Source: a virus
Strand: one strand, 5' to 3'
Length of the DNA stretch: 24,202 nucleotides
IMG/VR virus record: IMGVR_UViG_3300036944_001491
Span: 1-24,202 of that record
The notes beneath the pieces were generated by a model. That model was not told the DNA's origin. It saw only the letters and a program-made list of their open reading frames with translations, and did no database searches. Shown piece by piece: positions 5,602 through 18,701 of this stretch; positions within the stretch are counted from its first letter, which is position 1; each line of letters opens with the position of its first letter. A program made the translations under genes and the position numbers.

Positions 5602-5670
5602 GATGATACCTATATTTAATCTGTTCTATCATGAAGATGTTGGGTTCAAGGTTAGAAATTAAATTGAAAA
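5602..5670 (-). promoter_or_regulatory. Leader and probable promoter of the polymerase gene
   Basis: This is the AT-rich region between the hairpin at 5671-5706 and the polymerase ATG. On the minus strand it contains TAGAACAGATTAAATATAGG, closely like the leader of the accessory operon. Confidence 0.35.
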
Positions 5671-5706
5671 TAATAGAAAGGAGGGCATGTGCCCTCCTTT
5701 CTATTA
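5671..5706. terminator. Perfect 16-bp hairpin terminator after the capsid-like 195-aa gene
   Basis: The arm TAATAGAAAGGAGGGC pairs fully with GCCCTCCTTTCTATTA around a four-base loop. On the minus strand a T-rich run follows, as expected of an intrinsic terminator. It begins about ten bases beyond the stop codon of the 195-aa gene. Confidence 0.85.
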
Positions 5707-5716
5707 CATTAGATAT

Positions 5717-6304
5717 TCATTCAGAATCGTAATTCAACTTTACTCTATACGCAGCAAGTTCTGCCACAATGAGGTTTGGTGGTTTATTATCGATAGGATT
5801 ATCTTTATCGATATGTTCAATCACGGATTGACCTATTGTTTGGATGGTACCCAACTGAGGTTGGAGTAAGGACATAAACGAAGTGGTTACTTTAAAATGA
5901 TCTTTATCTATCATAGTTGTCAGCTTAGAAGGGCCACCGTCCCATTGAAGTGTGTGTTTGAAAATAAGGAAACTGAAAGTATTCCCCATTCCCTGCATTT
6001 TAAGATGACCACTACTTTCAACTGGCATAAATGTACTAGATGCGGTATCACCTAATCCGCATTTAAAATACTCTGTGATAAACTTGTCTTCGCAGAAGAA
6101 CGTAACTCCAACAACTACCTTATCAATGTAGCCATGGTCGCCCACTAGATCAGTACGATCGATGTGAGAGTATGACAGATTAGTAGCAAACCTACCTAGA
6201 TCCAACATCGATGCTATAACATTGGTTTTGATAAGATCCTCTGAGTCTCCAAACAAAACTTTATTGAAATCATTTTGTTTGTTTATAACGATTGGTTGTG
6301 TCAT
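5717..6304 (-). CDS. Mini-paralogue of the major capsid protein (195 aa)
   Basis: Residues 11-80 align with residues 247-315 of the 736-aa capsid candidate encoded at 7087-9297. The shared line is L-D-L-x-R-x-x-T-N-x-x-Y-x-HIDRTDLV-x-D-x(4)-D-x-VVV, followed by F-x-T-E-Y-F-K against N-T-E-H-F-K. Residues 147-154 (LQPQLGTI) match the capsid C-terminal tail (LQAQLGTI, 712-719). The stretch between, several hundred residues of the capsid protein, is absent. DNA identity also survives: 18 identical bases at 6150-6167 and 8432-8449. The gene has AGGA seven bases before its ATG, its own promoter-leader and its own terminator. It may be a minor capsid, vertex, decoration or assembly-control protein; function is inferred, the relationship is visible. 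Confidence 0.8.
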   Translation of the reverse strand: MTQPIVINKQNDFNKVLFGDSEDLIKTNVIASMLDLGRFATNLSYSHIDRTDLVGDHGYIDKVVVGVTFFCEDKFITEYFKCGLGDTASSTFMPVESSGHLKMQGMGNTFSFLIFKHTLQWDGGPSKLTTMIDKDHFKVTTSFMSLLQPQLGTIQTIGQSVIEHIDKDNPIDNKPPNLIVAELAAYRVKLNYDSE

Positions 6305-6309
6305 AATTC

Positions 6310-6393
6310 ATCCTTTTATAGTTCAAAATATCGGCTTCAATTTCGACTTTTTTATTTCTATATCGAAGTGTATATTTTGAACTATATAAGGAT
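6310..6393. promoter_or_regulatory. Divergent leader with a 22-bp inverted repeat
   Basis: 6310-6331 and 6372-6393 are inverted copies of one 22-base sequence with a single mismatch: ATATTTTGAACTATA, then A or T, then AAGGAT. Each copy ends in the ribosome-binding site of the gene it faces (195-aa gene to the left, 205-aa gene to the right). The two genes therefore have near-identical leaders and probably matching promoters. A shared regulator or early-phase expression of both is a reasonable inference. Confidence 0.7.
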
Positions 6394-6401
6394 ATCTAAA
6401 T

Positions 6402-7019
6402 ATGATCATTCTAGATCCAGGACATATATACAAACTAGACGATGGACAGACATTGAAGTTTGTAAAGCGTGGTGGTGGGGCTATTCAATATCCAGAAGAA
6501 TGGCCTGGTATCCAGACTCAGGCTGTTATGCGGTCTGTAATAGATCACTTATGGTTACTCGAAGGAGACATTGATTTCCCTATTGATTATGATTTATGGC
6601 AACTCGGTACGGATGAGACCGCTGGGTTAACATTGACAGATCGCGCGCAAATTTGCGACGTAATAAAAGTGTTATCTAATCGTAGTAATTATCTCAACGC
6701 TATTCTAGAATGTGCAGAAACTAAAGATTCTATCTGCTTTTTGAATGCGGCTCACTTCGAAGTATCACATTACATAGAGTTTGGTCAGTATACAATTGAA
6801 GGTTGTCCTATCGACCATATGCGCATGGCGTTATGGAATTACGAAGCCAGAGCATATCGGCGCAAGCAAGAGAAGGTTAATAGAGAAGCACCAACACATG
6901 ACGACTCACAGCGTCTTAAAGCCTGGAGATATCACCCTGCGGCCGATGTACCTTTTGGTCCTCACGAAATAGAAAGAAGACCCATAGGACTAGACGGACA
7001 TATTGTTTTAGAAACATAA
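6402..7019 (+). CDS. Unknown protein with possible small-domain N-terminus (205 aa)
   Basis: I do not recognise a family. Residues 3-53 (LDPGHIYKLDDGQTLKFV ... DHLWLLE) have the same outline as the small repeated domain of the accessory operon (G-x-x-Y-x-x-x-x-G, closing near an acidic D-x-L-x-x-E), which is a weak match. The rest is soluble, with Cys residues spread through it, an Arg/Lys-rich stretch near 150-165 (ARAYRRKQEK) and a C-terminal segment with PFGPHEIERRPIGLDGH. AAGGAT lies eight bases before the ATG. It is a single-gene transcription unit ending in the hairpin at 7027-7054. Confidence 0.7.
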   Translation: MIILDPGHIYKLDDGQTLKFVKRGGGAIQYPEEWPGIQTQAVMRSVIDHLWLLEGDIDFPIDYDLWQLGTDETAGLTLTDRAQICDVIKVLSNRSNYLNAILECAETKDSICFLNAAHFEVSHYIEFGQYTIEGCPIDHMRMALWNYEARAYRRKQEKVNREAPTHDDSQRLKAWRYHPAADVPFGPHEIERRPIGLDGHIVLET

Positions 7020-7024
7020 AGAAT

Positions 7025-7056
7025 GGGAGAGGCGGGCCTTGCGGCCCGCCTCTCTC
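7025..7056. terminator. Bidirectional GC-rich hairpin between convergent genes
   Basis: GAGAGGCGGGCC (7027-7038) pairs fully with GGCCCGCCTCTC (7043-7054) around TTGC, with further G:C pairing outside. It separates the 205-aa gene (plus) from the capsid gene (minus) and would serve both. Confidence 0.85.
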
Positions 7057-7086: not shown

Positions 7087-9297
7087 TTAGATAGCCAGCT
7101 CAGCGCTGTAGTTAGGGCTGAGTTCAACTGGCGTATGACCAATGGTGCCCAACTGAGCCTGCAGACCCTTGACTTCCATACAGATACCGACCTTGTTCGA
7201 CATCATCACGATTTCACGGGTCGTGGTCGCAAAGCGACGCATCGAAGCACCGTTGATGGTGGGGATGTAGTTGGTCGAAACCATACCGCAATCACGGATC
7301 TGTGCGGCCGAGAGAATGCTCGCCATATCAGACTCGATCACAGGTACGATGTACAGACGCTGGATCATGCAGTCGAAGTTGGTTTTGATCACATCGAGAC
7401 GATAACCGTTAGGCAACAGCATCGAATAGTCAGCACCGGTAGCCGTAGCAGCCTTGTCGGTGAGTTCTGGATAGTAATCGGTGATACCGATAACCAGGTC
7501 AGCAATGGTCGAGTGAGCCCAGCACTTAAGAACCGGACGTTCGCCAGCCTTATACTGGTTGAGCATCAGCGACTGTGCGAACAACGACGTTGCCAGCGAC
7601 AGCAGACGAGCACGGAAACGACCATGAATTTCGACCAGGCGGGTCGATTCGTTCATGACGTTCAGCTCTTCGTCTTCGAAGTTCAGAACCGAGGTAACAA
7701 CGGTAGGCTTGACGAGCGAAGCTGCAAAGCTCTGTTCGCCAATGGTATTGTACGAAGCGATCTCTGGATTGGTCATCGCCCACTGCTGACCTTCAGCGAT
7801 TTCGTTGAGCGCGCTCACAATGGTGTCAAGACCACGGCGACCGTTACCCAGCGCCATCACCGTCGAGGTGGTAGCAATGTTGTTCTCATCGACTTCCTGG
7901 CTCAGCGAGTAGTCTGCGAAATAGACGCGGCCACGTGGAACAGCAAACTGCTGTTCGTAGTAGTTAGTCTGGATCGACAGGTTCGCCTTACGCATATTTT
8001 CTTCATCGAAATATGCTTCAACGCTGAAAGCAGACAGCGAGGCTGTCATAGCGTTAAACAAAGTGGTGGTACCACCCGAGATGGCGACGCCGCTGGCCAG
8101 AGGAACCAGAACGAGTTCAGCGTTACCCGAACCTTCAAGCAGACCCGTCTTGATGTTGAGGGTCGCTGTCAGACGCAGATTGATCTGAACCTTAGCATCC
8201 GTTAGAGCAGCAGCAATAGCCGAGGCACTGCCGTCGAACTCAGTCGAGGTGGAGCTGATCGAGAAGGTAGCATCCAAGATAACCTGACGCTGACCCGAAT
8301 CCTTGGTCGAACCCGAGATGGAGAACTGAGCCTGCTCAAACACCTTGGTGCTCAGCTTGAAATGCTCTGTATTCGCGCCCGAGACAATGGTGACAACAAC
8401 CGCGTCAACCACAGCGCCGTCCGAAACCAGGTCAGTACGATCGATGTGATCGTAGGTGAAGTTGGTACCGGTGCGCGACAGATCCAGGATCGGCGCTTTC
8501 TTGCCGGTCTTGAAATATTCGGTGGTACCATTCCACAGAACATCACCCGAGTCGTTGGCATCAAGAGCAAGAATGCGCTTGGGTGCCGAGTTAACAGGCT
8601 GAGGGTTACGGAACAGATCGCGCAGGCGATTGGAGTTGGCAGGACCATGACGCGACGCGATTGTCGAGTTGGCTTCCTGGGTCTTGGCCCAATCGAACAC
8701 TTCAGGAGCAGGGACCTTGATAGTCACGATCGGCGAAGAATCGCTGACGCGAGCCAGGGCCTTGTCCATGATGTTTTCGCTAGGACGCATGATCGTCAGA
8801 GTCATGGTAACGCGATCATCCGACGACAGACGATTGACATCGTCACCGAAAGCTTCCATACCCACGCCGTCTTCGCCCATCAGCTGAGCAGCCATCGAGC
8901 GACCAACAACAGTGCTCATGGACACCTGATTGGCGCTAGGAGTAGCGGCATTCAAGATGGTCATAGGCTTACGATTGCCGTCGAACAATTCCAAGCACTG
9001 CTCGGTAACCTGTTCGATGTGGCGCGGCGGCATATCCATCTTCTGCAGACCCTGCATCAGACGCTCAGGGGTAGCATCCGAGAGGGCGTCGAAATTAGCA
9101 ACGCGCGTGACAGTGGAACCGAGATCTTCAAGACCAAGCTGGCCATGACCACCGGCAGGCGTAGCAGCACCCCAATCCTTGAGTGTGTCGCAGGTAAGCG
9201 CAAAAGCCCGATGCGCAAGGCTCTTGCTGTTCTGGTTAATCTGCAAATCAGCCGCCGCTTTGCGGACGCGGCGACGCAGTTCCTGATTGAAACTCAT
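7087..9297 (-). CDS. Probable major capsid protein (736 aa)
   Basis: A long, soluble, Ala/Ser/Thr-rich protein without membrane segments or enzyme motifs. Its size is close to the about 750-residue capsid proteins of phiKZ-like jumbo phages. It has a charged helical N-terminus (MSFNQELRRRVRKAAADLQI), as seen in delta-domain or scaffold-like regions, then mixed beta-rich sequence. The gene is visibly more GC-rich and codon-restricted than its neighbours (a sampled 60-base stretch is 57% GC against 45% in the next gene), which is typical of the most abundant virion protein. Residues 247-360 and 708-722 are partly duplicated in the 195-aa gene. AAGGAT precedes the ATG by about eight bases. Capsid identity is inferred from size, composition and context and not from a recognised motif; another abundant virion protein such as the tail sheath is the main alternative. 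Confidence 0.7.
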   Translation of the reverse strand: MSFNQELRRRVRKAAADLQINQNSKSLAHRAFALTCDTLKDWGAATPAGGHGQLGLEDLGSTVTRVANFDALSDATPERLMQGLQKMDMPPRHIEQVTEQCLELFDGNRKPMTILNAATPSANQVSMSTVVGRSMAAQLMGEDGVGMEAFGDDVNRLSSDDRVTMTLTIMRPSENIMDKALARVSDSSPIVTIKVPAPEVFDWAKTQEANSTIASRHGPANSNRLRDLFRNPQPVNSAPKRILALDANDSGDVLWNGTTEYFKTGKKAPILDLSRTGTNFTYDHIDRTDLVSDGAVVDAVVVTIVSGANTEHFKLSTKVFEQAQFSISGSTKDSGQRQVILDATFSISSTSTEFDGSASAIAAALTDAKVQINLRLTATLNIKTGLLEGSGNAELVLVPLASGVAISGGTTTLFNAMTASLSAFSVEAYFDEENMRKANLSIQTNYYEQQFAVPRGRVYFADYSLSQEVDENNIATTSTVMALGNGRRGLDTIVSALNEIAEGQQWAMTNPEIASYNTIGEQSFAASLVKPTVVTSVLNFEDEELNVMNESTRLVEIHGRFRARLLSLATSLFAQSLMLNQYKAGERPVLKCWAHSTIADLVIGITDYYPELTDKAATATGADYSMLLPNGYRLDVIKTNFDCMIQRLYIVPVIESDMASILSAAQIRDCGMVSTNYIPTINGASMRRFATTTREIVMMSNKVGICMEVKGLQAQLGTIGHTPVELSPNYSAELAI

Positions 9298-16076: not shown

Positions 16077-17111
16077 TTATGGAATGTTTCTACTCACAGT
16101 TAGGTCTTGTATCCCAAAAGCCTGTGTGAAAATATCACTGAGCGGCGCGCTAATAAGCGCTGTTACAAAAGGGCTAACATTTGAAAAATCAACAGTGAGG
16201 AAGGTAGATTCGAAAATTCCATTATCTTGACACGCGATCTCGATGGTACCATTTCTCGTCATGGTTATATTGTAAACACCCTCACTACAAGGAATTGGCG
16301 CGTTAAGTAGTAACGTACCCAATCGGATTTCTAATGCTCTATCAGGATTAACAATCAACGTAATCGTTTGTTCCCCATTTAAGAGCGATATCACAATCGT
16401 GGGTAAAATAGGGTATCCGTTAATACATAGGACTAAAGACAAGTCATTGGACACACTTGACAGTGCGATGGGATATCCAGATATAGCGTCAAAAGATCCG
16501 AAATATGGAACTTGTGGACTGAGGTGAAAGATACATTGACTCTGTGGAATCACCGGTTGTAGCGTATCTGCATTGAACACGACAGGAATAGGGGTACTAT
16601 TAACACCCCAACCGCTAGCTATAAAGGCATCTTCATCGGCAAGTTGCGAGGCAAAGGAAAACGTTACAGGGACATTATCCGAAACCAAATGTCCCCACTC
16701 TGAAGATAGGGTAACTGTACAGGTGGCTGGTACTGACCCATCGACATTTTTAATACGATCGTATAAATATCGATTCAATACGATTCTTCGTATCAACTCA
16801 AGGAAACCTATGGATGGTACGATATCTGATCTAAAGACCAACTCAGACACAGGCGTGGCTGTCATCTTTGTATAAATATCGTAAGTGCGTTCTATGATCT
16901 CTTCTAGGAAACTAGCATCACTTACTCTGTGAGGATCGTTAAAATCAAGAAGGTGATCGATGAATGACTGGTAGACCGTATTAAATTCATCGAAATTATA
17001 TCGTTTTAAAATACCTAGAATCATTTCGATAATAGTGCGATGGGAGGCTGGATCTAGGATATCCCCCTTTGTCTTTCGCAGTGCGACAAAGTTATTCAAA
17101 ATAGAAGGCAT
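16077..17111 (-). CDS. Virion or fibre protein related in layout to the next gene (344 aa)
   Basis: It has DHLLDFNDPHRVS at residues 52-64, a variant of the NPH motif of the following gene, set in a helical N-terminal region (ILGILKRYNFDEFNTVYQSF). The rest is beta-rich and LamG-like (LSLVLCINGYPI, ITMTRNGTIEIACQDNG, ending FGIQDLTVSR). The frame can start at a TTG two codons upstream, but the ATG at 17109-17111 is better spaced from GGGTGGA. It is the first gene of the operon 17111 to 13783. The two proteins may form one fibre or collar structure; this is inferred. Confidence 0.65.
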   Translation of the reverse strand: MPSILNNFVALRKTKGDILDPASHRTIIEMILGILKRYNFDEFNTVYQSFIDHLLDFNDPHRVSDASFLEEIIERTYDIYTKMTATPVSELVFRSDIVPSIGFLELIRRIVLNRYLYDRIKNVDGSVPATCTVTLSSEWGHLVSDNVPVTFSFASQLADEDAFIASGWGVNSTPIPVVFNADTLQPVIPQSQCIFHLSPQVPYFGSFDAISGYPIALSSVSNDLSLVLCINGYPILPTIVISLLNGEQTITLIVNPDRALEIRLGTLLLNAPIPCSEGVYNITMTRNGTIEIACQDNGIFESTFLTVDFSNVSPFVTALISAPLSDIFTQAFGIQDLTVSRNIP

Positions 17112-17261
17112 GATCAAAAATCCACCCGTTGTTATATGGTCATAGTATCCAAATTACCTAGGCAAGATGGTCAAATTAATGGGTGAATTTAATCTCTCCG
17201 ATTGCTTGGCGATGGTATGGAATTTGAAATAGCAAGCTTTGTTAATAAAGGTATATTTTTC
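17112..17261. promoter_or_regulatory. Divergent promoter region between fibre operon and UvsX-like gene
   Basis: AT-rich spacer of 150 bases. The right half could be coding if the TTG at 17202 or the ATG at 17217 were used for the plus-strand gene, but neither has a clear ribosome-binding site. No repeat or hairpin is evident. Confidence 0.35.
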
Positions 17262-18701
17262 ATGAACGCACGTCGCTTAATGATTAACGCCGATGCCGAA
17301 GAAGCACGGCCCCGCCCGTTTATCAACACAGGTGGGCCGCTGGATATGATCACGGGTAAGTTTGTCCCTGCTGTAGACGGAAGTTGGATGTTGTCAGGTG
17401 GGCTTGGGGCCACTACTGCGATTGTCGCTGAAGCCAATCGTTTTAAATCAACACTCTTACATGGTTGTGCGATCAACGCTCTAGCGCGGTGGCCGGACAC
17501 GGAGTATCTTAACAACGACACCGAATATGCTGCCGTGGACAAAGATCGTCTGGCTAACATGTCAGATCTATATTTAGACGATCCAGTAAAAAGAATATCC
17601 CATGTCGAAGACCTTAAGTCAAGGATCAGCATCTTTGATCCAACCACGCAACAAGGTGAAAGTCTAGATGCTTTTGTAGATCATCTCAAAGCCGTATCCG
17701 AGGAAAAGATTAAGCGATACAAAGACTATGAAGTGGAAACTGAGGTCCTAGATCCAGAGACCATGAAACCCATGCGTATGCTGCTACCCACATTCGGGGC
17801 CATTGATAGTTGGTCAGAGGCCATGGTGCGGCAGATGAATGTCAAGAATGATTCGTTCGATGCTAATACGGAAATGAAAGAGCAACGGACAATGCACATG
17901 GAGGAAGGCTGGCAGAAAGCTCGCCTCCTGCGGCAGATTCCTAGCATCTGTGCTAAGGGTGGAATCTATCTTCTCATGACTGGTCACATGGGTAAAAAGA
18001 TTGCCATAGGTACCACGCCAAATAAAAAAGACATGGCGTTCATGGGACAGGACGAAGCTGTCAAAGGTATGAGTAATAAGTTTTATTTCTTGATGGCCTC
18101 TATGATCAAGATCTCAAACACCTCTCCGTTAACAGATAAATCCGATAGACGATTGAGTGAATATCCATCGGCAGATGGTATTGCTGGGACAGAATTACAG
18201 CAGCTCTTACTTACCCTCGTACGGTGTAAGAATGCAGCATCTGGCAATCAAACACAGTTGGTATCATCACAGAAATTTGGTCTTCTAACCGGATTGTCCT
18301 ATTACGACTATTTGCGTAACAATAAATATCATGGGTTGGGAAGCCCCAATAAGGTTCGTAGTCCGTTTCTAGGTGATCTCAATATTGGGCGTACCAAGAT
18401 ATTCGATGCCGTTAATGATTATAAAGTTCGTAGAGCACTGGAAATCACGTATCAGCACAGTGTTATTCAAGGCTCTTGGACGTTAATGGGTCAGCCAGTG
18501 GATTGTAGTATTCCCATTGAAGTACTGGCCGAAAAACTCATGACATCAAATAGTTATGCTGTGGATGACATTTTGAATTCTCGTGGATGGTGGACCTATA
18601 GAGGTGCTCCAGTTGATCGCGAATATCTCTCTTTCTTTGATATCTTGTCGATCATTGAAAACAAGTATCGTCCGAAATGGTTTGCTGTAACTGCAGGATA
18701 A
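17262..18701 (+). CDS. RecA-fold ATPase, probably UvsX/RecA-like recombinase (479 aa)
   Basis: The P-loop is AEANRFKST (residues 56-64 from this start; K62), which has the F-K-S ending of T4 UvsX (G-P-S-K-S-F-K-S) and not G-K-[ST]. A Walker B-like segment is LLPTFGAIDSWSEAM (about 174-188), followed by GIYLLMTGHMG (234-244) and VRCKNAASGNQTQLV (320-334), positions where RecA/DnaB proteins have their sensing and DNA-contacting loops. The C-terminus is unfamiliar. It could instead be a second SF4 helicase-like protein. The open frame reaches back to a TTG at 17202; I chose the ATG at 17262 because AAAGG lies ten bases before it and conserved-looking sequence begins there. It is a single-gene unit between fibre operons. 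Confidence 0.65.
   Translation: MNARRLMINADAEEARPRPFINTGGPLDMITGKFVPAVDGSWMLSGGLGATTAIVAEANRFKSTLLHGCAINALARWPDTEYLNNDTEYAAVDKDRLANMSDLYLDDPVKRISHVEDLKSRISIFDPTTQQGESLDAFVDHLKAVSEEKIKRYKDYEVETEVLDPETMKPMRMLLPTFGAIDSWSEAMVRQMNVKNDSFDANTEMKEQRTMHMEEGWQKARLLRQIPSICAKGGIYLLMTGHMGKKIAIGTTPNKKDMAFMGQDEAVKGMSNKFYFLMASMIKISNTSPLTDKSDRRLSEYPSADGIAGTELQQLLLTLVRCKNAASGNQTQLVSSQKFGLLTGLSYYDYLRNNKYHGLGSPNKVRSPFLGDLNIGRTKIFDAVNDYKVRRALEITYQHSVIQGSWTLMGQPVDCSIPIEVLAEKLMTSNSYAVDDILNSRGWWTYRGAPVDREYLSFFDILSIIENKYRPKWFAVTAG

Follow-up and report, generated by a model that had tools for sequence, protein, structure and literature searches.

The major capsid protein (MCP) of phage phiKp24 is composed of a body, an arm and a hand, and the hand (residues 167-313) consists of two layers with three antiparallel strands each (PMC9700779). 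Capsomers are connected by the arms and hands, which probably give the shell the kind of stability that decoration proteins provide elsewhere (PMC9700779). Folds similar to Ig-like decoration proteins also occur as insertion domains of capsid proteins (PMC7602432). Paralogues of capsid proteins as such are already known, T4 gp24 being one example. A literature search with partial coverage yielded no description of stand-alone capsid domains, which is not proof of novelty. Here we describe a gene that encodes a hand domain on its own, together with its counterparts in other phages.

Results

The window, i.e. the whole stretch of DNA that was analyzed, comprises the 24,202 bases of an IMG/VR record. 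It covers part of the genome of a phiKZ-type jumbo phage and encodes a DNA polymerase, a helicase and a capsid protein of this type. An earlier note on this DNA had proposed that an open reading frame for 195 amino acids (ATG start) encodes a condensed paralogue of a 736-aa capsid protein candidate. The candidate is indeed the MCP, as judged from Pfam, PHROG and structural matches (Table 1). Single-sequence searches of phages and of IMG/VR did not reveal direct relatives of the two proteins, and distant relatives were reached via alignments of the DNA polymerase and the MCP. As nearest relatives, four contigs of IMG/VR were found (G001, 94.8 kb; G002, 74.7 kb; G003, 307.8 kb; G004, 249.6 kb), the DNA polymerases of which are 50-61% identical to that of the window.

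Table 1. Features of the window in the region of the capsid protein gene
Feature	Position	Strand	Evidence or remark
Terminator-like hairpin 3' of the stand-alone hand gene	5670-5707	-	17-bp perfect stem, T-rich tail
195-aa stand-alone hand gene	5717-6304	-	BLASTP to MCP, MCP-only hand HMM, AF2, Foldseek
Predicted six-stranded beta core of the 195-aa protein (residues 59-189)	5738-6130	-	AF2 strands
18 bases identical to 8432-8449 in the MCP gene	6150-6167	-	Encode part of HIDRTDLV
Divergent leader, common to the hand gene and the 205-aa gene	6305-6401	.	Contains 37-nt inverted repeat
205-aa gene, divergent from the hand gene, function unassigned	6402-7019	+	ORF list, orthologue in G003
Terminator-like hairpin 3' of the MCP gene	7027-7054	-	Hairpin search
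MCP, phiKZ type, 736 aa	7087-9297	-	PF25620 (E 5.9e-25), PHROG 3231 (phrog_3231; E 1.3e-21), Foldseek (8bfl, 8y6v)
Hand domain within the MCP (residues 242-433), segment copied in the small gene	7999-8574	-	Alignments; confident AF2 strands 296-427

The small protein corresponds to one entire MCP domain

In BLASTP, the small protein aligned from residue 11 to residue 195 with MCP residues 248-433 (E 2e-11, 27% identity), and the alignment with the MCP of G001 was equally good (E 5e-13). The proposed homology was thereby confirmed. The proposed shape, with several hundred residues skipped and a second match (LQxQLGTI) to the capsid tail, did not stand. The match is a single contiguous and colinear stretch that extends as far as the C-terminal residue of the small protein, therefore the term condensed is wrong and a second match is not needed. 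In the colinear alignment LQxQLGTI pairs with LNIKTGLLE inside the hand. Outside of the hand, the score of the best ungapped protein match was equalled in 44 of 100 codon shuffles, and the tail match was rejected as being at chance level in protein; the score of the best DNA match outside of the hand was reached in one of 100 shuffles. The small protein begins at the hand boundary, and its end coincides with the end of the MCP hand. It represents one entire MCP domain and not a capsid protein that has been trimmed and then joined from separate parts. Of the original interpretation, the paralogy to the capsid protein is retained, and a whole single domain replaces the duplicated and trimmed form.

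The 18 identical bases that had been pointed out in the two genes are present and lie in the conserved motif (Table 1). Identical codons at identical residues were observed 21 times, compared to 17.4 expected. As this is not a clear excess, the data do not point to a recent gene conversion between the hand gene and the MCP gene, and this possibility was rejected.

Among the characteristics of a phiKZ-type MCP, the 195-aa protein has the beta sandwich of the hand. The HK97-type body with P and A domains is not present, the match being limited to MCP residues of about 248-433, nor is the N-terminal propeptide that is cut by the head protease, as the protein begins at the hand boundary. It is a stand-alone hand, i.e. 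a single hand domain that ends at the MCP hand boundary. A Pfam search with this protein did not yield any match, PF25620 and PF25619 included.

The AF2 model based on the MCP alignment was poor overall (pLDDT 43), and its best part comprised six strands at residues of about 296-427. For the 195-aa protein, six homologous rows yielded a model with a pLDDT of 78 and a pTM of 0.77, in which the same six strands are predicted (residues 59-71, 74-83, 104-114, 136-148, 153-165, and 179-189). The two models are not independent, because MCP rows were included in the 195-aa alignment. A Foldseek comparison of this model with solved structures retrieved 8bfl (E 1e-8) and 8y6v (E 7e-7), and below an E-value of 0.001 only capsid proteins of phiKp24 and phiKZ were found (query TM-scores of 0.64-0.71). 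The small protein and the MCP domain share one predicted fold, and the similarity extends beyond HIDRTDLV, as seen in the BLASTP alignment and with a hand profile derived only from MCPs. The proposal thereby withstood both conditions that the note had named for its refutation. On the basis of predicted fold and position, the copied segment is equated with the phiKp24-type hand.

The hand of the MCP (window 8227-8424, MCP residues 292-357) also had weak phmmer matches to levivirus coat proteins (E 0.0012 to 0.5). In Pfam the respective family (PF01819) was reached with an E-value of 0.088, below the cut-off, for the MCP hand only. No further support was obtained and the kinship was rejected; the likeness is probably due to chance or a common sheet pattern.

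The hand gene has its own transcription unit and a codon usage typical for the window

The claim that the gene is situated in its own transcription unit was borne out by the separate leader and the hairpin (Table 1). The leader contains an inverted repeat with 37-nt arms (6310-6346 and 6357-6393), and TATAGTTCAAAATAT is identical in both arms; no further exact copy was found within the 24,202 bases of the window. The 205-aa gene has a clear orthologue in G003 (16660-17301, E 8e-62), which is located far from the G003 MCP gene, and a Pfam search with the 205-aa protein gave no match. Between the MCP gene and the DNA polymerase gene the window has a gap of 1485 bases, which contains the 195-aa gene and the divergent 205-aa gene. 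In all four related contigs the DNA polymerase gene comes 121-150 bases after the MCP gene.

As had been noted before, the hand gene lacks the GC-rich codon usage of the MCP gene (GC3 0.35 versus 0.62), but the MCP gene is the exception in the window. It alone is high (overall GC 0.54), and all other genes have GC3 values of 0.33-0.45. Codon adaptation to the MCP is 0.30 for the hand gene, which resembles the other window genes, versus 0.69 for the MCP gene itself, therefore a low expression of the hand gene would be expected. Codon bias is a weak guide, as a tail-fibre-like gene and other probable structural genes of the window have equally low values.

A PADLOC search did not yield any match. 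Elsewhere in the window, positions 855-1757 encode a NADAR-domain protein (E 8.7e-14) and the adjoining positions 1767-2357 an AlkB-like 2OG-Fe(II) oxygenase (E 8e-36), possibly a pair of nucleotide or NAD repair genes.

Stand-alone hands are present in several phages

The hand profile was built from twelve MCPs only, and its E-values count one sequence. It detected the window copy (28.4 bits), a 290-aa protein of G003, gp106 (188 aa) and gp282 (406 aa) of 201phi2-1, Phabio_274 (315 aa), and Viktualia CDS0496 (373 aa). In whole-record profile searches the MCP hand was found in 27 records, the window included, and five of these contained stand-alone hands in the first round. A search of four records with the filters switched off added three proteins of pEt-SU (pETSU_087, pETSU_088, and pETSU_096) and two of OBP (OBP_148 and OBP_160). 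As a profile, the pEt-SU trio matched the hand profile with a probability of 92.6%; as single sequences the values were 47, 28, and 9%, and none of 60 control ORFs exceeded 0.9%. The MCP PHROG was matched by two of the three (5e-5 and 1e-5). Altogether, eleven stand-alone hands were found in seven phages (pEt-SU three, 201phi2-1 and OBP two each, the window, G003, Phabio, and Viktualia one each), which is a lower bound, because the search without filters covered four records only. All stand-alone hands of 201phi2-1, Phabio, pEt-SU, and OBP are annotated as hypothetical.

A Foldseek search against viral models also had small uncharacterized proteins of phiKZ-type phages among its matches, and B3FIW9, A0A1Y0SWN0, and A0A4D6DWC6 were linked to gp106, Phabio_274, and pETSU_096, respectively, by organism and protein length only. 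For the entry G9IA52, no link to the tested 185-aa ORF of OBP could be established. Several further candidates were rejected. The weak match of phiKZ gp266 (E 0.005) was gone when its orthologues were used (probability 0.7-1.4%), and the syntenic phiKZ gp185 did not match the hand profile.

gp282, Phabio_274, Viktualia CDS0496, and the G003 protein are extended at the N-terminus by about 90-190 aa, and a comparison did not support a module common to the N-terminal parts of gp282 and the G003 protein. The stand-alone hands with a clear C-terminal alignment end where the MCP hand ends, before the ENxRKA/NxNRR motif.

Positions and origins of the hand genes

The window copy adjoins the MCP gene. 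gp106 (NC_010821, 55727-56293; L042, 7728-8294) has the nuclear-shell gene gp105 as its immediate neighbour on one side and the RNA polymerase gene gp107 on the other; in the equivalent gap nothing is annotated in phiKZ, and Phabio contains an unrelated-looking 90-aa gene. gp282, Phabio_274, and the Viktualia copy are found upstream of thymidylate kinase, pETSU_087/088 and OBP_148 after an SbcC-type ATPase gene, pETSU_096 and OBP_160 after RNase H, and the G003 copy beside an SbcC-like gene (assigned by reading the sequence). The synteny is thus kept between OBP and pEt-SU for OBP_148/pETSU_088 as well as for OBP_160/pETSU_096. In pEt-SU (MK689364, 100843-101963) two stand-alone hand genes are arranged in tandem, with an overlap of four bases, directly after the SbcC-type gene.

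In a tree of hands, a single origin of the stand-alone copies was rejected by the AU test for six (p 0.00034) and for eleven copies (p 3.9e-6). The window copy groups with the MCPs of its own lineage and with the G003 copy (98/95), and a common origin of these two copies was not rejected (p 0.145). The finer placement is unsure, because the branches are long. The presence of more than one origin argues that the domain alone has been useful repeatedly, and making one-domain copies of the hand is probably of use to giant phages. A random frame of 195 codons would be open by chance with a probability of about 9e-6. The open frame at 27% identity, together with the OBP/pEt-SU synteny, indicates that stand-alone hands are kept under selection.

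Discussion

The 195-aa protein is devoid of a propeptide, an arm and an HK97 body, and therefore it cannot replace the MCP in the shell. The stand-alone protein may have kept the binding surfaces of the hand, and it would then occupy the hand-contact sites on capsid subunits or on capsids. As it cannot join the lattice in the manner of an MCP, it would act as a cap, a spacer or a competitor at these sites. Our tentative reading is that the protein is a low-abundance accessory factor in head assembly or head handling, which acts at hand-contact sites, and not an abundant component of the shell. The evidence favors such a factor over an abundant decoration protein, albeit not strongly. For the vertex, size-determining and capsid-poisoning roles that the note had considered, no support was obtained; the 201phi2-1 record does not name its two copies among the virion proteins, and the vertex protein gp119 of phiKZ is not related to the hand.

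A minor virion protein appears to be a somewhat unlikely alternative. It would be bound outside of the mature head at places where a hand partner is missing, e.g., at the hexamers around the portal vertex, or it would decorate the local two-fold ridges. This would agree with the capsomer-linking role of the hands, which resemble a built-in decoration (PMC9700779), with the location of the window gene beside the MCP gene, and with the extra densities of unassigned nature at the vertices of jumbo phages (PMC5646251). However, the record of 201phi2-1 lists dozens of virion proteins as "identified as virion protein by mass spectrometry", and gp106 and gp282 do not carry this remark, although this is one distant relative and a protein with few copies per virion could escape detection. 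In addition, OBP_148 and OBP_160 are annotated as hypothetical and not as virion proteins, and the hand gene is devoid of an MCP-like codon bias.

The fast evolution with long branches, the patchy presence, the several origins and the accessory locations would fit an interference factor. Such a capsid fragment would co-assemble badly with the capsid of a related rival phage and lower its yield, while the own capsid would be tolerant. Phages of this group compete when they infect the same cell, and a barrier has been proposed to arise when divergent structural proteins co-assemble (PMC7804931; see also PMC11620839). Yet the gene order shared by OBP and pEt-SU suggests that, at least in these two, the protein has long had a role for the phage itself, and we regard interference as unlikely. 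Even less probable is a docking factor at the phage nucleus, in which a hand copy would connect the capsid to the nuclear shell while DNA is packaged. The shell is a docking site for capsids (PMC10643120), and gp106 lies between the genes for the shell and the RNA polymerase and has no virion remark, but the idea fits the position of gp106 only, the remaining copies are not adjacent to a shell gene, and docking has already been attributed to ChmB and the portal. Two profiles did not find a nuclear-shell gene in G001-G004, from which no conclusion can be drawn, because both also missed SPN3US. Lastly, a functionless relic of a partial gene duplication would agree with the strong divergence and the presence of each copy in few phages, but it is scarcely credible in view of the intact frame, the own leader and terminator, the domain-exact ends, the several origins and the conserved synteny.

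The low-abundance accessory factor is thus the reading that we prefer. A more general proposal, which is doubtful at present, would be that phiKZ-type phages repeatedly free the hand as a small protein that is not part of the virion and either controls the assembly or docking of heads or sabotages the capsids of co-infecting relatives. To our knowledge, a capsid-derived regulatory or interference factor has not been described for tailed phages. Irrespective of the mechanism, several "hypothetical proteins" of giant phages, some of them in cultured Pseudomonas phages, become a recognizable group with a defined capsid origin. The role of a lone capsid-linking domain in the infected cell, be it to stabilize, time, dock or poison capsids, becomes directly testable.

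The closest known counterpart is the hand of the phiKZ-type MCPs (phiKp24 gp372, residues 167-313; phiKZ gp120, PF25620), which has the same predicted fold and a detectable sequence homology. The difference is that the 195-aa protein is encoded by a separate gene, without propeptide, arm and HK97 body. Of the same kind as the window copy are gp106, gp282, Phabio_274, pETSU_087/088/096, and OBP_148/160, and they differ in genome position. The vertex-binding protein gp119 of phiKZ (PF25619) is likewise small, of similar length and encoded beside the MCP gene, but it does not match the hand profile and is unrelated. The Ig-like decoration proteins Hoc, pb10, and gp17 are beta sandwiches like the hand, and no relation to them was found; unlike these, the hand copies derive from phiKZ-type MCPs. 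T4 gp24 has the whole fold of a capsid protein. As the vertex paralogue of the capsid protein gp23 it builds the pentameric vertices of the T4 head (PMC5694885), whereas the 195-aa protein is one domain only.
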